DNA of 34,892 nucleotides from contig JAUWEG010000017.1 of assembly GCA_030608385.1 (NCBI GenBank), positions 1-34,892 on the forward strand, given 5' to 3'. The notes below the pieces were generated by a model, which saw nothing but the letters and a program-made list of their open reading frames with translations, searched no databases and was not told where the DNA came from. The position numbers and the translations under genes were made by a program. The DNA comes from Candidatus Heimdallarchaeota archaeon (GTDB lineage: Archaea > Asgardarchaeota > Heimdallarchaeia > Heimdallarchaeales > Heimdallarchaeaceae). This document shows, piece after piece, positions 650-27,823 of the stretch; position 1 is the first letter of the stretch, and the number at the start of each line of letters is the position of its first letter.

Positions 650-1795
650 ATGAATAAGAAAAAAGTATGCTTTCTAACTCAAGAATACAGAAAGGGAGCA
701 ACTTGGATTTATTGTTTCCAATTGGCCAAGATTTTAAACGAAGAAGGAGATTGGGAAGCACATATTATCTCAGCAGCTAAGGATTGTGAATCAGCTAGTG
801 GAAAAATAGAAGTGCCGTTTTTGTCCTTAATTAAAACCTCTTCCTCAAGATATTTCTATTCTAGAAACTACTGGAAGAAGTCAAAAGAAATTGTTAATAA
901 ACTAAATCCAGATGTTGTTCAAGGAAATATGAACCTACTATCTTCATTAGGAATTAAGAATAAATATCCTATTGTTGAAACCGTTCATACCACTTTTAGT
1001 AGGGAAAAACGAGGAGTTGACAAATTACCTTTCAAACAACTAAGCTGGGTTGAACGAAGGGTTCGTCTTTTATTTCCATTATTGAAATTCGTTGAAAAAC
1101 GAGTTCTAAAAAGAGCTAATCATTTAATTGCAGTTAGTGAAGCTATTAAAGAGGAATTAGTAAAATACTACTCCATTGAAGAAGAACAAATAACTGTCAT
1201 CCCAAATGGTGTAGATACTAAAATTCACTATAAAACAGATGAAAAAATCTACATGAAGAAAAATAAGGAATTGGTTTTAGGTTTTCTTGGAAGAATGACA
1301 GCAGGAAAAGGAGCTCATTTAATTCTGCCAATAATTAAGAAAATTAAGGAAAAAATTCCTGATGTTAAACTACTCATTGCAGGAGATGATCTGAACTCAA
1401 GAAAGAAAATATTAAGCCAGATTAATAGATTGGGACTAAATGAGAATATCATAGATTTTGGATATATTTACGATAACCATAAGAAGAATACATTCTTCAG
1501 TTCTATTGATCTATTGTTACTTCCTTCTAGTCATGAAGGTATGAGTTTGGTACTGTTAGAAGCTATGGCTTGTCAAACCCCAGTATTAACAACCCCTGAA
1601 GCAAATACTTTCGACCACAAAAATACCTTGATAATCACACCTAGATCTGTTAATCACTTTGCTACAAAAGCAATCGAAATCTATAACAACCCAAAAATGG
1701 TTGAGGAAATTCAAAAAAGGTCTAAGGAAGTAGTAGAACAGCTTTCATGGCAAAAAACCGCAGAAAGAACAAAAATTGTTTTTGAAAATCTATAA
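650..1795 (+). CDS. Glycosyltransferase family 4 (GT-B fold)
   Basis: 381 aa. Contains VIPNGVDTKIHY, LGFLGRMTAGKGAHLILP and PSSHEGMSLVLLEAMACQTPVLTT (EX7E motif), typical of GT4. Confidence 0.9.
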   Translation: MNKKKVCFLTQEYRKGATWIYCFQLAKILNEEGDWEAHIISAAKDCESASGKIEVPFLSLIKTSSSRYFYSRNYWKKSKEIVNKLNPDVVQGNMNLLSSLGIKNKYPIVETVHTTFSREKRGVDKLPFKQLSWVERRVRLLFPLLKFVEKRVLKRANHLIAVSEAIKEELVKYYSIEEEQITVIPNGVDTKIHYKTDEKIYMKKNKELVLGFLGRMTAGKGAHLILPIIKKIKEKIPDVKLLIAGDDLNSRKKILSQINRLGLNENIIDFGYIYDNHKKNTFFSSIDLLLLPSSHEGMSLVLLEAMACQTPVLTTPEANTFDHKNTLIITPRSVNHFATKAIEIYNNPKMVEEIQKRSKEVVEQLSWQKTAERTKIVFENL

Positions 1796-2821
1796 AGAAG
1801 AACTAGAATCATCAATATCGCTTTCAGAAGTCTTTTCTTCTACGTTTTCTGTTCTTATTTCGCGCTTTTTTTGTTTTTTCTTCTTTCTTCGTTCTATTCG
1901 TTTTTGTTTTCTTAGTTCTCTAATCTCCTTTTTCTCACTCAAAGGAAGTATAAACAACCAGAAAACAGGTATCCATAAAATAAGCATAATGTAGCCGAGG
2001 TAATTATGTACTGGTTCTCCAACCTCTCTTCCATAGAAGTAGTATAATGAAATTACTATGATGATTCGTAAAATATTGATGAAGTAGGTTCCAAAAATTC
2101 CAATTAATGTAACAAGTCCTGTTCTATAATTCCAACGTAGTCTTTTCCTTGCTTCAAATAACATGATTAGGAATATGGCTGTAAAGATTGTAAGTGAATG
2201 AATTCCACTACACCTAGCATCAATGAGTATTGCTGCTTCTCCGCTAGGAGCTGTCATAAAATCAATTTTAGTCATATAACTCGTTGTTAACCAAGTAACA
2301 TCACTAATATTCATACCAAAAGCAATCAATAAAGAGGACACTATAGTTCCAGTTAGCTTTGTTAGCCATCTAGCTATCCCTAAATCAAAGAGAAAGGTAT
2401 CTAAACCTGAAAAAATAAGGGCATAAAAAACGGCTGTTAAAATAACCATATACAAGCCAGGGGTTCTGTATTTCTTGAAAAAAGAATCATCCCATGAAAC
2501 ATAGAGAACCATGATAAGAGCAAAAACTAAACCCATAGGAACAAGAGCGACTGTAGGAATGGGGAGGGACAGAAACATTGCTTTCTCTTCTTCACGAAAT
2601 GTTTCAAAGAGAACGTAAAGATAAACAACAAGTCCTAGAAGAACAAAAGAAACAGAATATCTCAGATATCTATTTTTTAGATAAGGTAAAGCAGGAGCTA
2701 TTTTCCCATTAATTTTTGAAAAGATATTTTGAGTCTTTACAAAACGATTCTTCTTGGTTTCATCATGGGAGCTTGTTTCATTAAAATCATCTTGTTTCAT
2801 GTCTACCATCTTTCCCACCAA
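1790..2821 (-). CDS. Exosortase/archaeosortase family transmembrane protease
   Basis: 343 aa, multiple TM helices. Ordered Cys/Arg/His motifs match the family: ARCSGIHSLTIF, FINILRIIIV, VHNYLGY. Long basic C-terminal tail. Confidence 0.8.
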   Translation of the reverse strand: MVGKMVDMKQDDFNETSSHDETKKNRFVKTQNIFSKINGKIAPALPYLKNRYLRYSVSFVLLGLVVYLYVLFETFREEEKAMFLSLPIPTVALVPMGLVFALIMVLYVSWDDSFFKKYRTPGLYMVILTAVFYALIFSGLDTFLFDLGIARWLTKLTGTIVSSLLIAFGMNISDVTWLTTSYMTKIDFMTAPSGEAAILIDARCSGIHSLTIFTAIFLIMLFEARKRLRWNYRTGLVTLIGIFGTYFINILRIIIVISLYYFYGREVGEPVHNYLGYIMLILWIPVFWLFILPLSEKKEIRELRKQKRIERRKKKKQKKREIRTENVEEKTSESDIDDSSSSL

Positions 2822-4017: not shown

Positions 4018-4773
4018 TTAGTTATTTCTTCTACAAATGCAATTTACATCTCTCTCAACTTCGAAGGTTTCGAAGCTGTTGTATTGTAAATCAGCGTGTA
4101 GTATCTTGTTAGCAAGTAGTTTATCTTTATCTTTGAAAACCAGATATTTTATAGCTTCATTGGCTTCTATTAAACCAAAAAATCCTGCTGTTGTCCCCAT
4201 AACTCCCTCTTCTCCAGTAGTGGGATAAGTACCAGGTGTGGGTATTTCTTTGAACACACATCTGTAACAAGCTGTTTCTTTAGGTAAAACAGTTATCATT
4301 TGTCCTTCAAACTGGAATACACCCCCTATCACAAAAGGTACCTCCAATTTGATACACATATCATTTACAAGGAATTTTGTTTCAAAATTATCACTCGCTT
4401 CTACTACAAAATCATAACCAGAGATTATTTTTTCTGCATTGCTTTCATTAAGATGAGTTTTGTGTAATATTATTTCTATATCTGAATTGAGTTGAGAAAG
4501 TTTGTTGAATGCTGAATCTATTTTAGTTTTATCCAGATCAGTTTCATAATGTAAAATTTGACGATTTAAATTGGACAATTCTACTCTATCTTGATCTAGT
4601 AATCCTAAATTTCCAACCCCAGCTGAAGCTAAGTAATATACAACGCTAGAACCTAACCCGCCTAAACCTATTACCAAAACTTTACTTGATTTCAGTGTTT
4701 TTTGACCCTCAACACCGATGTTTGAGATTATAATTTGACGATTGTATTTCTCTAACTCATCTTTACTAAGCAT
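4018..4773 (-). CDS. HesA/MoeB/ThiF family adenylyltransferase (E1-like)
   Basis: 251 aa: YNRQIIISNIGVEGQKTLKSSKVLVIGLGGLGSSVVYYLASAGVGNLGLLDQDRVELSNLNRQILH; paired CYRC ... CIC cysteines. Confidence 0.9.
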   Translation of the reverse strand: MLSKDELEKYNRQIIISNIGVEGQKTLKSSKVLVIGLGGLGSSVVYYLASAGVGNLGLLDQDRVELSNLNRQILHYETDLDKTKIDSAFNKLSQLNSDIEIILHKTHLNESNAEKIISGYDFVVEASDNFETKFLVNDMCIKLEVPFVIGGVFQFEGQMITVLPKETACYRCVFKEIPTPGTYPTTGEEGVMGTTAGFFGLIEANEAIKYLVFKDKDKLLANKILHADLQYNSFETFEVERDVNCICRRNN

Positions 4774-5346: not shown

Positions 5347-7440
5347 TTAAGGTTCTAAAAGCATTCTTAGGCTGATTAAGTGACTATTAATTTCGTTCTT
5401 TAGTTTCTCAATGGTTTGCTGCCTTTCTCGGAAGAGTTTCATATATGACTCTCTGGTCATGTTCTTCTTGACCCTGTATTCTTGCTGAAGCATGCGAAGA
5501 TTTCTTCTTTCTTCGTAAAGTTTTCTTTCAGCAATCTCGATCTTTTGGACATATTCCTTATATCTTCCACCAAAAGCTATCAGAGATTCTTTTGTCTTCT
5601 TCAAATCTTCTTCCTCTATTCTTTGGCGTTTCTCGAGTTTGGCAATCAAATCTTTGCCTGCTTTAGCTTTCAATTTCTTTGCAGCTAATTTTGACCTAGT
5701 TTCCCGTAATCTCTCACGAATAGATAGAATTTCTTCATATTGTTTAACAAATTCCTCTATTTCATCTACCGGAATGAATTCTTTATCCGATTCATCTACC
5801 ACTAAATCTTTAGCTTTCTTTGTTGACCACCTAATACCAAGATAGACTGCAAATACTACACCTACAACAATTACTTGTAATAAATAAGTAATCAACATGT
5901 TCAACCTCGAATAGCGGTAACTGATTATTACAGGAGCATTGTCATTTCCTGAAAAAGTAGTGAACTTAAAGCTCATAATACGTCTGAATCCAAGTGTAGT
6001 GAATTCGAATTTTTTATCATAACTTATATACATATCTTGATAGGGATCAGGATTATTGTATTGAATTTCTTGGTATACAGCTCCCTTAGGTAGAATAACA
6101 TCTACTTTGAGTTCATCAATGGTCCAATTCACGATAGAACATGGCTCAAACGAAAACTTATAGTTAATAGAGCCTGTTTCTTTTGTTAAGAAGGTATCCA
6201 AAGGAACTCTATAAATTATGGTGAATGTCATTTGGTCCCCATAGAACAATGGTGTTCTTGGAAATATTACCAAAGCATCATGGCCTGGAAAAACGCTAGG
6301 GCGTTGATTATATGCCCCTGGAGTAAATATTTGATTCTCAACTTGATAAATTTGATTTAATGAACCTACTTCATCATATAGATCTATGATGGTTGCATTT
6401 ATTGGTATAATTATAGGAAAGGCGTTCAGAGCATATGGTTTTAGATCTATTTCATTATAATCATCTGGTTTCTTAGGACCAAGAAAAACTAATGTTTGAG
6501 ATTCTGTTATCTTAACCAAACCAAAAGGATCAATTTCAATTTTCCGATACACATTAGATGATTTAAACAGAATTGTGTTAGCAGGATTTTCTACATCACC
6601 GGAAGCACTAACTGATGATAAATAGACGTTCAACATCAAATCATCTTCATATGATTGAGTATAATTAAATGGCTCTCTAGTTATGTTAGACCACTTTAGA
6701 AGACCAGTTTCGGCATCAGTGATTAATATTATGCCTTCTGTAGAATTGTTAGGAGTTATTGTATGTTCCGCATCGTCTAAGAAAATATCTCCTCCTTGTT
6801 TTTCTATCCAGACTAATCCATCAACTATTGGAATATTATTGATTAAAGGGTAAACTAATTCCTCATACTTGAGCACTTGTTCAGTATTAACAATTGTATA
6901 TGTATAAGGATATGCAAATTCAATATAGACATTGATGAAATATTGAGCTCCTTGACCAATACTTGTTAAGTCTAGGTTAAATGGAACCGTGAAGGTTGTG
7001 TAATTAATATATTTCTGAAAAGTATAGGTTCTCTTAGCAGTTGAGTTCCCTATACCTTCATATGATGCATTCGAAACACGGAAACTTGCAAATGTAATAT
7101 TATCAACATGAATGTTAGGCAGAGTGTAATTGAAATATGTCATCACGCTTTCATTCCCAATGATATTTACTTCAATAGAATCTATTAAACCCAGAGTGCC
7201 AAAAGTCTGCATTTCTACTGTTCTATTAACAACAGCAGTTGCGTTAAACCCATAGGTGTAATTAGATGAAAGGGAATAAACTTCTTCACTAATTGGGGGG
7301 ATGGGATTGCTTAGATTGGTTGGTTCAGTTACCATGATATCGTTGGAGTAACCTTGAACTAATCCGGACATTGTTATTAATGACATTGAAATTACAACTA
7401 ATATAGTCAAAGTAAACATCGTACTTCTGATTTTCTTCAT
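5347..7440 (-). CDS. Ribophorin I-like (OST1/RPN1-type) membrane protein: signal peptide, ectodomain, single TM, cytosolic coiled coil
   Basis: 697 aa. Signal sequence at N-terminus, many NxS/T sites, TM (LLQVIVVGVVFAVYLGI), coiled-coil tail. Segments such as IDELKVDVILPKGAVYQEI, PRTPLFYGDQMTFTIIYRVPLDTFL and YRKIEIDPFGLVKITESQTLVFLGP correspond in order to regions of eukaryotic ribophorin I as I recall it. Confidence 0.7.
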   Translation of the reverse strand: MKKIRSTMFTLTILVVISMSLITMSGLVQGYSNDIMVTEPTNLSNPIPPISEEVYSLSSNYTYGFNATAVVNRTVEMQTFGTLGLIDSIEVNIIGNESVMTYFNYTLPNIHVDNITFASFRVSNASYEGIGNSTAKRTYTFQKYINYTTFTVPFNLDLTSIGQGAQYFINVYIEFAYPYTYTIVNTEQVLKYEELVYPLINNIPIVDGLVWIEKQGGDIFLDDAEHTITPNNSTEGIILITDAETGLLKWSNITREPFNYTQSYEDDLMLNVYLSSVSASGDVENPANTILFKSSNVYRKIEIDPFGLVKITESQTLVFLGPKKPDDYNEIDLKPYALNAFPIIIPINATIIDLYDEVGSLNQIYQVENQIFTPGAYNQRPSVFPGHDALVIFPRTPLFYGDQMTFTIIYRVPLDTFLTKETGSINYKFSFEPCSIVNWTIDELKVDVILPKGAVYQEIQYNNPDPYQDMYISYDKKFEFTTLGFRRIMSFKFTTFSGNDNAPVIISYRYSRLNMLITYLLQVIVVGVVFAVYLGIRWSTKKAKDLVVDESDKEFIPVDEIEEFVKQYEEILSIRERLRETRSKLAAKKLKAKAGKDLIAKLEKRQRIEEEDLKKTKESLIAFGGRYKEYVQKIEIAERKLYEERRNLRMLQQEYRVKKNMTRESYMKLFRERQQTIEKLKNEINSHLISLRMLLEP

Positions 7441-8499: not shown

Positions 8500-11157
8500 A
8501 TGATGAAGCGTTTTGATGATAGAAAGCTTATGCCTAAACTAACCCCAATGATGCAACAATGGCAGGATATTAAAAAACAATATTCTGAGTATATCATATT
8601 TTTCAGAGCGGGGGATTTCTATGAAACATTTAATGAAGATGCACAAATAGCTTCTCGAGTTCTTAATATTACTCTCACAGCTCGCACACTAGGAGAAAAG
8701 AAATTTCCTTTAGCAGGTGTTCCATATCATGCAGTGGATGCATATATTGCCAAAATGGTAGAAAATGGGTACAAAGTTGCAATGGTTGAACAATTGGAGG
8801 ATCCACAAACAACTAAGAAAATTGTAAAAAGAGGAGTTGTGCAATTAATCTCAAGAGGAACAATCACTTTACCAGAATCTCTAGCAAAGGGGCATAATAA
8901 TTACTTAGCAGCAATTTACAAGGAAGGAAATTTGATAGGTCTTTCAGCTCTAGATTTATCTACAGGTGAGTTTTTAGTTACAGATTTTGAAGGTGAAAAA
9001 GCAAAAAATCTACTAGAAGTAGAATTAACCCGCCTTAACCCATCAGAAATCATAGTAACCCAAGAATTTTGGGCAAAACTGAATATCTATTTTAATCAGC
9101 AAAAGTGTACTATCACATATAGAGATGATTATTTTTTTGATATTGAGCAAGGACTTCAGAATCTTCATAGATTATTCGATGTTCTAAGCTTGGATGGATA
9201 TGGGGTAAATGAATACGTTCCTTCGATAGGAGCAGCAGGAGCTACACTCAAATACATTAAAGAAACTCAAATGAGAGAAAATTTTCCAAATATCACAAAA
9301 ATCAGTCAAATCAAGAGTCAAGACTATATGTTACTTGATTTCAGTACTATTAGAAATCTTGAACTGATAGAAAATTTACGTGACAGAACAGAATATGGAA
9401 CACTGAGGCAAGTTCTTGACAACACTAAAACACCAGTGGGATCAAGATTGCTCACAACATGGATACTACGTCCTAGTCTTAATCTTTCAATAATTCAAGA
9501 GAGAATTGATGCAACAGAAGAATTATCCTCAGATTCAGTATCTAGAGAAGAATTGAGAAACATACTTGGAAGAATGAGTGATATTGAACGTTTGATAGGA
9601 AGAATATGTCTTGGAAGAAGTAAACCACGAGATTTAACCGCTTTGAAAAGTTCATTGGAATTGATACCAGATATTAAATCAGTTCTTTCAGAATTCAAAG
9701 CATCTCTCATAAAAGATATCAAAAAGAATATTGATCCATTGCCAGAAGTGGTAAATATAATCGCTACAGGAATTGAAGACGAAGTTCCCGTGAGTATTAA
9801 AGATGGTAATGTTATTAGAGACGGATATAATGAAGAGCTGGACGAGCTAAGGAAAATACAAAGAGGGGGAAAATCATTTCTTACTTCTTTAGAAGCAAGA
9901 GAGAAAGTTCGAACTGGAATAAAGACTTTAAAAATTCGTTACAACAAAGTATTTGGTTATTATATTGAAGTCCCAAAGGCCTCAGCAGTTAATGTCCCTC
10001 AAGAATATGAAAGAAAACAAACACTTGTGAATGCTGAGAGATATATTACCCCAGAACTAAAAGAATATGAAGAAAAGATTCTAAACGCTGAAGAAAAAAT
10101 ACTAGTTTTAGAAGAAGAATTATTCGACCAATTGTTGGAGGAAATAACTCAATATGCCAAACCAATCCAACAAAATGCCAATTACTGCGCAGTAATTGAT
10201 GTTATAGGAACCTTTGCACAAAATGCAGTGTATTATGATTACTCAAAGCCAGAAATTACGAAAGAAAGCATTATTGAAATAAAGGACGGGAGACATCCTG
10301 TTGTTGAAAGACTATTGGAACAAACATCCTTTATTCCTAATGATACATTACTGAAAAATGATTCAGAAAGAATATTAATTATCACAGGTCCAAACATGGG
10401 AGGAAAAAGTACATTACTGAGACAAGTTGCTTTAGTAGTTTTAATGGCTCAAATTGGTAGTTTTGTACCTGCAAGCTTTGCAAGAATCGGACTAACTGAT
10501 AGAATTTTTACAAGAATAGGTGCTCATGATGTTTTAGTAGAAAATCGTTCAACATTCATGGTAGAAATGTATGAATGTGCTAATATCCTCAATAATGCTA
10601 CAGAAAAAAGCTTAGTGATTCTAGATGAAGTTGGTAGAGGAACATCAACATATGATGGGGTTGCCATAGCTTGGTCAATAACAGAATACCTTCATGATCA
10701 TATTGGTAAGAATGGACCACGAACACTTTTTGCAACACACTATCATGAGTTAATAGAATTGGAAGAAAAAATGCCTAGAATAAAAAATTATCATGTTTCT
10801 ATCAAGAATGTTAATGGAGATATTCACTTCCTCTACAAAGTGAAAGAAGGAGGAATAAGTGAGAGTTTTGGAATTCATGTTGCTTCACTAGCAGGATTAC
10901 CAGAAGACGTTATCACAAATGCAGATAATCGCTTATCATTATTACATGAACAAGAGTTAGAAAAAAGTACCACTAAGAAAAGTGAAACTATTAAGACTAA
11001 ATCTTCAAAATCAAAAGTTTCTACTATTTATTCAGCATATGAAGAAATTGTTGAGAATGTTTCTAGATTGAATTTAGAAGATACAACACCAGTAGAAGCA
11101 TTCAATATCCTAAATGATTTAGTTAAGAAAAGTAAAAAAACTTTGAAAGAGAAATAA
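8500..11157 (+). CDS. mutS: DNA mismatch repair protein MutS (bacterial MutS1 type)
   Basis: 885 aa; FFRAGDFYETF mismatch-binding motif, GPNMGGKSTLLRQVALVVLMAQIGSFVPA Walker A, LVILDEVGRGTSTYDGVAIAW, LFATHYHEL. Confidence 0.97.
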   Translation: MMKRFDDRKLMPKLTPMMQQWQDIKKQYSEYIIFFRAGDFYETFNEDAQIASRVLNITLTARTLGEKKFPLAGVPYHAVDAYIAKMVENGYKVAMVEQLEDPQTTKKIVKRGVVQLISRGTITLPESLAKGHNNYLAAIYKEGNLIGLSALDLSTGEFLVTDFEGEKAKNLLEVELTRLNPSEIIVTQEFWAKLNIYFNQQKCTITYRDDYFFDIEQGLQNLHRLFDVLSLDGYGVNEYVPSIGAAGATLKYIKETQMRENFPNITKISQIKSQDYMLLDFSTIRNLELIENLRDRTEYGTLRQVLDNTKTPVGSRLLTTWILRPSLNLSIIQERIDATEELSSDSVSREELRNILGRMSDIERLIGRICLGRSKPRDLTALKSSLELIPDIKSVLSEFKASLIKDIKKNIDPLPEVVNIIATGIEDEVPVSIKDGNVIRDGYNEELDELRKIQRGGKSFLTSLEAREKVRTGIKTLKIRYNKVFGYYIEVPKASAVNVPQEYERKQTLVNAERYITPELKEYEEKILNAEEKILVLEEELFDQLLEEITQYAKPIQQNANYCAVIDVIGTFAQNAVYYDYSKPEITKESIIEIKDGRHPVVERLLEQTSFIPNDTLLKNDSERILIITGPNMGGKSTLLRQVALVVLMAQIGSFVPASFARIGLTDRIFTRIGAHDVLVENRSTFMVEMYECANILNNATEKSLVILDEVGRGTSTYDGVAIAWSITEYLHDHIGKNGPRTLFATHYHELIELEEKMPRIKNYHVSIKNVNGDIHFLYKVKEGGISESFGIHVASLAGLPEDVITNADNRLSLLHEQELEKSTTKKSETIKTKSSKSKVSTIYSAYEEIVENVSRLNLEDTTPVEAFNILNDLVKKSKKTLKEK

Positions 11158-11206
11158 CAGTAAATATTGCTTTAATTGCCTTAAAACAAAGAACATCTGT
11201 GATTCT

Positions 11207-13021
11207 ATGAGTAGAAAAATAGTCAAACTAGATAAGCTTACTATAAACAAGATAGCTGCTGGAGAGGTTATTGAACGACCAGCGTCTGTTGTTAAAGAAC
11301 TTGTAGAAAATTCAATTGACGCACAGAGTAGCAAAATCACAATAAACATTCAAGAGGGAGGGAAAAAAAGTGTAGAAGTTATAGATGATGGAATAGGGAT
11401 GGAATCTACTGATGCAAGATTGTCAATTAATCGGCACACTACCAGCAAAATAAATAATGCAGATGATCTATTTTCAATTTATAGTTTAGGATTTCGAGGA
11501 GAGGCTTTAGCAAGTATTGTTAGTGTTGCTCAGGTTGAGATAATCACCAAAACAGAAGAGTCAGATTTAGGAATTCACTTAGTGATTGAGGGGGGAGAAA
11601 TTGTTTCAGACAAACAAGCCTCCGCACCGAAAGGAACACGCATTAGTGTAAAAAATCTCTTCTTCAATGTTCCCGTTAGAAGAAAATTTCTTAAAACAAT
11701 ATCTACTGAAATCAATCACATTACAGAATATGTAACTAAACTAGCACTTGCAAATCCTAGCATTTCTTTCACCCTTACTCATAATGGAAAGGATATACTT
11801 ACAGCTCCCAAAGGTGATTTGATTGTACAAATTACCGCAATCTTTGGTGAAAATATAGCCAGAGCTTGTTTACCCATCAATAAGAAAGAAAATGAATACA
11901 GTGTTACAGGTTTTATTACTAAACCAGAATTTTCCCGAAAATCCAAAGACTATCTGTATATCTTTGTCAATGGAAGGTCTGTAACCAACAAAGTCATATC
12001 TGAAGCAGTTTCGCGAGGATATGGTACCGCAGTTCCCCATAATAGATATCCCATAATTTTTCTATATTTCGACTTACCGCCAGATGAAGTTGATGTCAAT
12101 GTACATCCAACTAAGAAAGAAATCAGATTTAGCAATGAAGCTAAAGTATATGCACTAATTGAAACGGCTATCAGAGAATCATTAGAAAGAAGTGGGTTAA
12201 AATTATTCGAAACAGTTATTGAAACAAGGCACAAACCAACAACTCTAACTTCGGTTGGAACCAAAAGTCATGAATCTGAAAAGAGAAAATTACCTACTCC
12301 TATAAGTCCGAGAGAAAGACCAGATTACAAAATAGTAAAAAGTAAGGAACAGAGAATTGATAAATTTCTTCCAACAATGGATAAAAACATAGAATTACAA
12401 GAAGAAGGCTTTGAACGAAAGAAGAGTATTAGAATTCTTGGGATTATCAAGGACACTTACATTGTTGCTGAAACCCAAGAAGGATTGTTCTTATGTGATC
12501 AACATGCTGCTCATGAAAAAATAAATTATGAGAGATATATTAAACAAATAAAAAAGAAAAGTGTCTCAATTCAGCAGTTACTTGCTCCTATTTCAGTTAC
12601 ACTAAAACCCTCTGAATTTGAAATAATAGAAAGTATAGAGGAAAATCTCAAAACATTTGGTTTTGAAATTGAAGTTTTTGGTAAGAATGAAATATTAATT
12701 CGGTCAATTCCATCTATTATGGGTGTAACTATAGAATTCAATGTAGCAAAGGACATGATTGATATTTTTAAAACAAATGTTTCAGAGATAAAAGAAAAAT
12801 TGGATTTAGAAGATTTAGGGTTTGTAAAAGACATAATATCCATCTTTGCATGTAGAAGATCAATTAAAGCTGGGGATAAAATCACATTAGATAGAGCGGA
12901 ATTGCTTTTGAAAGAGTTACTAGAACTAGAAGAACCTTTCACCTGTCCCCATGGAAGACCAACCATCATTATACTAAATGAAAAATACATAGAAGAGCTT
13001 TTTAAGAGAGATTATAGATAA
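11207..13021 (+). CDS. mutL: DNA mismatch repair protein MutL with C-terminal endonuclease motif
   Basis: 604 aa; KIAAGEVIERPASVVKELVENSIDA, GFRGEALASI; C-terminal DQHAAHEKINYE fits DQHA(X)2E(X)4E; FACRRSIKAGD and CPHGRP. Confidence 0.96.
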   Translation: MSRKIVKLDKLTINKIAAGEVIERPASVVKELVENSIDAQSSKITINIQEGGKKSVEVIDDGIGMESTDARLSINRHTTSKINNADDLFSIYSLGFRGEALASIVSVAQVEIITKTEESDLGIHLVIEGGEIVSDKQASAPKGTRISVKNLFFNVPVRRKFLKTISTEINHITEYVTKLALANPSISFTLTHNGKDILTAPKGDLIVQITAIFGENIARACLPINKKENEYSVTGFITKPEFSRKSKDYLYIFVNGRSVTNKVISEAVSRGYGTAVPHNRYPIIFLYFDLPPDEVDVNVHPTKKEIRFSNEAKVYALIETAIRESLERSGLKLFETVIETRHKPTTLTSVGTKSHESEKRKLPTPISPRERPDYKIVKSKEQRIDKFLPTMDKNIELQEEGFERKKSIRILGIIKDTYIVAETQEGLFLCDQHAAHEKINYERYIKQIKKKSVSIQQLLAPISVTLKPSEFEIIESIEENLKTFGFEIEVFGKNEILIRSIPSIMGVTIEFNVAKDMIDIFKTNVSEIKEKLDLEDLGFVKDIISIFACRRSIKAGDKITLDRAELLLKELLELEEPFTCPHGRPTIIILNEKYIEELFKRDYR

Positions 13022-13343: not shown

Positions 13344-13736
13344 TTATTTTCTTTTTCTCCCGTAAATTTCCTTGAGTTGTTGTTCAGTAAGCATAACGGG
13401 AATACTTTCTTTTATATCAAATTGATGATTTTCATCATGAGAACAATATAGCTTCCCACTTTGAATTTCAATTTTGAAACATTCTTGACAATCCTTTAAC
13501 GATACATGTTTTTTGATTTCATCTATTTCTTTTATCCTTTCTTCCCCATTATCACTTATTTCTACGAGTTGGAATTGAAGAAAATTGCAATAATAGTTAC
13601 AAACAACTTCAGTTTGTTCATTTTGCAAAGGGATTGAAATTTTCTCTAATGTCTTTACTTCCTCTGCAATTTCCAATTTCAAAGGCCATGATTTATCAAT
13701 TGGACATGCCAATAAGTCCATCAATCTATGTTTCAT
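13344..13736 (-). CDS. Trm112 family zinc-finger protein (long form)
   Basis: 130 aa; MKHRLMDLLACPIDKSWPLKLEI at the N-terminus and IEIQSGKLYCSHDENHQFDIKESIPVMLTEQQ at the C-terminus match Trm112 ends, with a central insertion. Confidence 0.8.
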   Translation of the reverse strand: MKHRLMDLLACPIDKSWPLKLEIAEEVKTLEKISIPLQNEQTEVVCNYYCNFLQFQLVEISDNGEERIKEIDEIKKHVSLKDCQECFKIEIQSGKLYCSHDENHQFDIKESIPVMLTEQQLKEIYGRKRK

Positions 13737-26920: not shown

Positions 26921-27823
26921 ATGAGTCAAAATGACATAAGAATGTATAAAGAACTCTTAGATCTCCTAGATAAGAGGAAAGAAGAAGGCGCAATCGACAA
27001 AGCTAGCTATGAAGAATTAAAGGAAAGATACACTGAAAAATTAAGTTCAGCTAGACAAGAATTAGAATTTAGAAAAGATGCACCTGACATAAAAGTATCA
27101 GGATCAAAAGCTTTCACACAAGATTCTATTACTGTTTCTGGTGCTGCCACAATATCTGGAGGGAAAGTGACAAGAGATATAAGAATCTTTGGATCGGGTA
27201 AAATCTCTGGAGATATTGAATGTAAAGCATTGCGATGTTCTGGATCAGTTAAAGTTTATGGAAATGTACTCGCACATGGTGAAGTAAAGTGCTCAGGTTC
27301 ATTTAAATGCGAGAAAGATTTACATACTGATGAAAATGCCTCGTTTAGTGGTTCAGCAAGAGTTTCAGGAGAAACCGTGGTTCAGGGACATCTTTCTGTA
27401 ACTGGATCCTATAGAAGCGAAAAGAATACACAGGCCATTAGAGGAGCTACCCTCACTGGTTCTTCTATAATAGGAGCTAATCTACTTTCTGAAGATACAA
27501 TTAAAATTGGAGGAAAAGCACGTATTGAGAAAAACATCTTGTGCGATAATGTATTAATCGAAGGTCGAAGAACCGTTTTTGAATCTTGGTTTTTCAGGAA
27601 AGCTAAAAAAATAGTAACTGTTTATGGAAGCATCATTGCACAAAATGAAGTAGATGTTCAAGATGTTAAAGTATTTAAGAATATTAAGGGAAGGGTTGTA
27701 AAACTAGGCCCTAATACTTTGGTAGAGGGGAGAGTATTTTATGTTGAAGATTTGTTCATGGCAGATAGTGTGAAGTTGATGAAAGACCCTAAGAAAGTAT
27801 CCCAAGAAGAAATTAAACTCTAG
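26921..27823 (+). CDS. Bactofilin-like polymer-forming protein with SHOCT-like N-terminal helical hairpin
   Basis: 300 aa; KELLDLLDKRKEEGAIDKASYEELKERYTEKL (SHOCT-like), followed by short-period beta-helix repeats (ITVSGAATISGGKVTRDIRIFGSGKISGDIECKALRCSGSVKVYGNV...SARVSGETVVQGHLSVTGS). Confidence 0.75.
   Translation: MSQNDIRMYKELLDLLDKRKEEGAIDKASYEELKERYTEKLSSARQELEFRKDAPDIKVSGSKAFTQDSITVSGAATISGGKVTRDIRIFGSGKISGDIECKALRCSGSVKVYGNVLAHGEVKCSGSFKCEKDLHTDENASFSGSARVSGETVVQGHLSVTGSYRSEKNTQAIRGATLTGSSIIGANLLSEDTIKIGGKARIEKNILCDNVLIEGRRTVFESWFFRKAKKIVTVYGSIIAQNEVDVQDVKVFKNIKGRVVKLGPNTLVEGRVFYVEDLFMADSVKLMKDPKKVSQEEIKL

Follow-up and report, generated by a model that had tools for sequence, protein, structure and literature searches.

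A ribophorin I (OST1) homologue in a Heimdallarchaeota genome and the glycan-related genes in its neighbourhood

Ribophorin I in Asgard archaea and in eukaryotes

Ribophorin I is an accessory subunit of the complex that glycosylates secreted proteins in human cells. Ribophorin I and Ost3 had been reported in Asgard archaea before 2023, and in that year the full set of oligosaccharyltransferase (OST) subunits was described, with Ost2, Ost4, Ost5, Swp1 and WBP1 also reported (PMC10307638). Ost2, WBP1 and Swp1 were limited to Heimdallarchaeia, with Njordarchaeales included in the case of WBP1, and the subunits of subcomplex III were reported as restricted to Heimdallarchaeota (PMC10307638). Further, the tail of OST1 from MK-D1 was crystallised in 2024; it forms a bundle of four helices and binds ribosomes (PMC11417166). 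From the presence of ribophorin I in Asgards it follows that OST had accessory subunits, and ribosomes were docked, before the ER arose, a point that is already published, and the homologue described here is a real find in a known family and not a new one. What is added is an intact 697-aa orthologue with a ribosome-binding-type tail in Heimdallarchaeota, together with genomic linkage to genes for glycan building, which offers candidate genes for testing a role in N-glycosylation.

The OST1 gene lies in a stretch of 34,892 nucleotides that was analysed as a whole (the window), and its product can be compared with several described systems. OST1 of the Lokiarchaeon MK-D1 (PDB 8WHN) has the same signal peptide, ectodomain, single transmembrane helix (TM) and four-helix cytosolic tail, but it comes from another Asgard class, ribosome binding has been demonstrated for the MK-D1 orthologue only, and the present genome differs in having no TRAP-alpha detectable by Pfam. 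Human RPN1, found in OST-A and OST-B (6S7O, 6S7T, 8B6L), gives an end-to-end profile match and the best fold match; however, it resides in the ER and is complexed there with RPN2, OST48, DAD1 and others, whereas the archaeal OST1 belongs to a cell without a known ER, is about 90 residues longer and carries many more sequons. Yeast Ost1 (6C26, 6EZN) is homologous in its ectodomain (E 2.6e-23 with a profile of Asgard homologues), but its chain (476 aa) lacks the cytosolic four-helix tail that the archaeal and human proteins share. In single-subunit archaeal AglB systems the same chemistry is expected from the STT3/AglB catalytic subunit, and archaea with such systems lack OST1, whereas the genome studied here has accessory subunits and an STT3 whose nearest match among solved structures is eukaryotic STT3A.

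Protein layout and family identity

The OST1 gene has an ATG start and open reading frame (ORF) boundaries exactly at the coordinates given in Table 1, and the four segments quoted in an earlier sequence-only reading of this DNA are all present in the translation, in the order given there. A Pfam search found a single copy in the genome, and seven related genomes carry an intact copy with 80-98% identity, so that the ORF is not a chance one. These seven related loci all come from Candidatus Heimdallarchaeota genomes, AB_125 included, and the present genome belongs to an AB_125-like genus of Heimdallarchaeota.

Hydropathy peaks at residues ~4-30 and ~511-540 correspond to a signal peptide and a single TM, and the ectodomain contains 16 N-X-S/T sequons where shuffled sequences of the same composition would have 5.7 (p = 0.0002), in agreement with what had been read from the sequence. 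A type I topology (a putatively cleavable signal, ectodomain outside, one TM) fits both the hydropathy and the model helices. The tail (residues 541-697) is charged, with 40 K/R and 31 D/E, and in an AlphaFold2 model built without templates (mean pLDDT 75.4) it is predicted as four helices (558-586, 592-623, 626-658 and 663-695). The cytosolic coiled-coil tail suggested earlier was right as to a charged, helical segment, while the prediction is a four-helix bundle and not one long coiled coil. Similarly, the proposed likeness in layout to eukaryotic ribophorin I holds for signal, ectodomain, TM and tail, and the sequon richness that had been part of it is not needed for the analogy. Sequon richness is not known as a defining trait of eukaryotic ribophorin I, and Asgard surface proteins in general are probably rich in sequons.

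Table 1. Coordinates of OST1, its parts, its neighbours and candidate partner genes; positions refer to the window unless a contig or locus is named
Feature	Position	Strand	Basis or remark
WlbB/WbpD-type hexapeptide sugar N-acetyltransferase, 189 aa	3402..3971	-	PDB 3mqg, E 1.1e-46
MoeB/ThiF/UbaA-like E1-type adenylyltransferase	4018..4773	-	Pfam ThiF, 246.6 bits
ORF of no known family, 137 aa	4847..5260	-	just downstream of OST1; genus-conserved
Ribophorin I / OST1 homologue, 697 aa	5347..7440	-	stop codon 5347-5349; Pfam, profile, Foldseek
Cytosolic tail, residues 541-697, four-helix bundle	5350..5820	-	predicted helices; 8WHN match; best-conserved region
Single transmembrane helix, residues 512-540	5821..5907	-	hydropathy maximum 2.46 at residue 516; model helix 512-550
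Extracytosolic beta-rich ectodomain, residues 31-511	5908..7350	-	16 sequons; Pfam match in C-terminal half
Signal peptide region, residues 1-30	7351..7440	-	hydrophobic residues 4-28; model helix 2-31
OSTC/DC2-like membrane protein, 141 aa	contig C38, L048:2868-3293	-	OST3_OST6 membrane half; human OSTC
OST48-like candidate, 365 aa	C38:24626-25720 (L062:1498-2595)	-	signal peptide, C-terminal TM
DUF354 genes near OST1	L111:12940-14046, L079:13669-14844, 20 more loci	+ (L111), - (L079)	

The Pfam model Ribophorin_I (PF04597, cut-off 25 bits) matches residues 287-535 with 70.3 bits over profile positions 193-435 of 437, while the relatives L002, L003 and L005 match it from positions 2-15 on, and none of 14 control genomes has a match. 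In a single-sequence phmmer search against PDB chains, human OST1 (E 3.4e-4), yeast OST1 (0.0037) and 8whn (0.0068), a cytosolic domain from an Asgard OST1, were found at E <= 0.01, and nothing besides OST1 chains and 8whn. A profile of 18 Asgard homologues matched human RPN1 with E 5.6e-38, covering residues 36-601 of 607 of the human chain, and 8whn with E 4.5e-32, and thus indicates homology to eukaryotic OST1 over the full length, N-terminal half included. The profile match is not independent of the Pfam match, because the homologues were gathered with the same Pfam model; the comparison of predicted folds is the more independent evidence. Foldseek of the predicted structure against the PDB placed RPN1/OST1 chains at all of ranks 1-8, with E values from 2.3e-27 (8b6l_O) to 2.3e-21 and TM-scores of 0.58-0.75 normalised to the target, before significance fell to 2.9e-6 at rank 9. 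Both the assignment to the ribophorin I family and the description of the protein as a relatively complete example, cytosolic tail included, are borne out by these Pfam, full-length profile, 8whn and Foldseek matches.

A surface or S-layer-like protein unrelated to ribophorin I, rich in sequons and ending in a coiled coil, could show the same layout, a reading favoured by an ectodomain that is sequon-rich and divergent, at 15-20% identity even inside the phylum. However, the family, profile and fold matches all point to RPN1/OST1, the ribophorin I match over the ectodomain is significant, and Pfam and NCBIfam scans of OST1 gave no competing family, whether DUF2207 or another surface protein. 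The profile and fold results refute, in our view, an unrelated surface protein, to which we give next to no probability. With a probability of roughly 0.88, the gene encodes the Asgard orthologue of ribophorin I, which would act within a multi-subunit oligosaccharyltransferase as a non-catalytic accessory subunit that docks ribosomes.

Distribution and candidate partner subunits

The Ribophorin_I model matches in 131 of 231 genomes of the Asgard phylum, distributed over 43 of 63 genera, and with this Pfam model alone OST1 was undetected in 100 of the 231, where the protein may not be needed or may have diverged too far. The genome analysed here, which is only 89% complete, encodes one STT3 of 757 aa (ORF L050:4338-6611, contig C107), whose closest solved relative is human STT3A (E 2.7e-89) and whose neighbours, named by reading the sequences, are EF-1A, FtsY-like, prefoldin-like and eIF6-like genes. 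It also encodes a 141-aa protein that matches the membrane half alone of OST3_OST6, with 27.4 bits barely above the cut-off of 27, and whose family profile, run against PDB chains, picks out human OSTC (E 7.3e-7) and chains of no other type. Judged from sequence, the OST3/6 member of this genome thus resembles OSTC/DC2, without a thioredoxin domain. A thioredoxin-like OST3_OST6 match (C207) was rejected as an ordinary thioredoxin (89 versus 27 bits).

The contig of the OSTC-like gene carries, some 2 kb away from it, the gene for a 365-aa candidate that shares 47% identity with a weak OST48_N match in a related genus. The candidate has no OST48 match in its own Pfam scan, and its family profile matches IFT52 and not OST48; it is a possible, unconfirmed OST48-like protein. 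No match to the Pfam models of DAD1, TRAP-alpha and Ost5 turned up in this genome, although a search of this kind can easily overlook subunits that are short or divergent, and the DAD1 and TRAP-alpha models matched in none of the genomes searched, relatives included, which makes them uninformative on absence. TRAP_beta Pfam matches occur in 16 of 21 genomes, the present one included, and were not accepted as proof, since the model also matches in Methanosarcina and on long proteins. The partner search that the sequence-only reading had proposed (STT3, OST3/6 and WBP1/OST48) thus yielded an STT3 and an OSTC-type protein, with the OST48-like protein only possible, and the multi-subunit OST that it had suggested agrees with published work (PMC10307638, PMC11417166).

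Gene neighbourhood and proposed role

Downstream of OST1 come the 137-aa ORF, the ThiF-type gene and the WlbB/WbpD-type acetyltransferase, in this order. The 137-aa ORF matches no Pfam or NCBIfam family, and it is 72-99% identical and adjoins OST1 in the relatives examined. Among the loci examined, this ORF and the ThiF gene stand beside OST1 in its own genus only, so both were left out as functional evidence, and the ThiF-type neighbour is probably unrelated in function to OST1. The best PDB match of the acetyltransferase, 3mqg, is WlbB of 2,3-diacetamido-uronic-acid synthesis. A MutS and MutL pair at 8500-13021 (plus strand) is kept upstream of OST1 across the genus.

Gene context was surveyed in 60 OST1 loci (the present one and 59 fetched neighbourhoods) from 23 Asgard families, with the ORFs clustered. 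The acetyltransferase lies near OST1 in nine of the 23 families, this window included, and often within 150 bp; its cluster mixes ~190-aa and ~260-aa proteins at 36-97% identity and need not be one ortholog group. A Glycos_transf_4 gene (PF00953, GlcNAc-1-P-transferase) is likewise near OST1 in 9/23 families, and one or both of the two genes are close to it in 15/23. Genomes carry about one copy of PF00953 and mostly one to three of the acetyltransferase, sometimes none, and because these copy numbers are low, either gene would fall by chance into the same 20-kb stretch as OST1 in about 1% of cases. Under a naive binomial the values are 2e-14 for PF00953 and 9e-12 for the acetyltransferase, which overstate independence, as the families share ancestry. 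Strand and order differ among families, which indicates that the arrangement was reshuffled while proximity stayed. This proximity to glycan genes supports a role of OST1 in N-glycosylation independently of homology, and the linkage is the only part of the findings for which no earlier report was found in the open-access literature searched.

The context also bears on whether the ribophorin I homologue mainly anchors ribosomes at the membrane translocon and takes no specific part in glycosylation. The tail is the best-conserved region of the protein, with a mean identity to distant Asgard homologues of 28.5% against 14.7% and 20.4% for the two ectodomain halves, and for MK-D1 binding to human ribosomes was shown with the tail by itself (PMC11417166), both of which speak for anchoring. 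However, the ectodomain fold is kept too, lipid-linked-glycan or sugar-nucleotide genes are found near OST1 in the 15 families counted above, and the clustered neighbourhoods show no conspicuous translocon gene family. We consider anchoring without a specific glycosylation function clearly unlikely and favour the accessory OST subunit.

As such a subunit, the protein would most likely be inserted into the cell membrane by its signal peptide, so that the ectodomain faces outward and the four-helix tail lies in the cytosol, and would form a non-catalytic part of a multi-subunit OST around the STT3 of the genome. The tail would dock the translating ribosome, the ectodomain would keep STT3 and its substrate close to the exit of the Sec channel, and sequons would be glycosylated on emergence. 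We infer complex formation, co-translational glycosylation and a corresponding in vivo role in this organism.

Alg13/14 homologues are missing from most Asgards (PMC8993221). DUF354 genes (PF04007, glycosyltransferase-like) lie within ~3 kb of OST1 in 7/23 families, and in the PDB one of the encoded proteins weakly matches a KDO transferase (E 4e-4). Speculatively, these DUF354 neighbours are candidates for a replacement of the Alg13/Alg14 step. A partly conserved N-glycosylation locus might be composed of OST1, a dolichol-type GlcNAc-1-phosphate transferase, a WlbB-type acetyltransferase and DUF354, where DUF354 may supply the second-sugar step, and might serve an OST-A-like co-translational OST with RPN1 and a thioredoxin-less OSTC-type subunit; we put this forward tentatively, as a rather doubtful proposal.

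Other genes in the window and the surveyed loci were observed in passing. A Trm112p-like gene lies near OST1 in 8/23 families and within 20 bp of it in family f19, and a protein of this type is encoded in the window at 13344-13736 (minus strand). A membrane protein of the exosortase/archaeosortase family (1790-2821, minus strand), whose C-terminal tail is long and basic, adjoins a GT4 glycosyltransferase (650-1795), which places surface-protein processing and glycan genes near OST1. In addition, the window encodes a 300-aa Bactofilin-domain protein (26921-27823, plus strand; PF04519, 35 bits), here in an archaeon.
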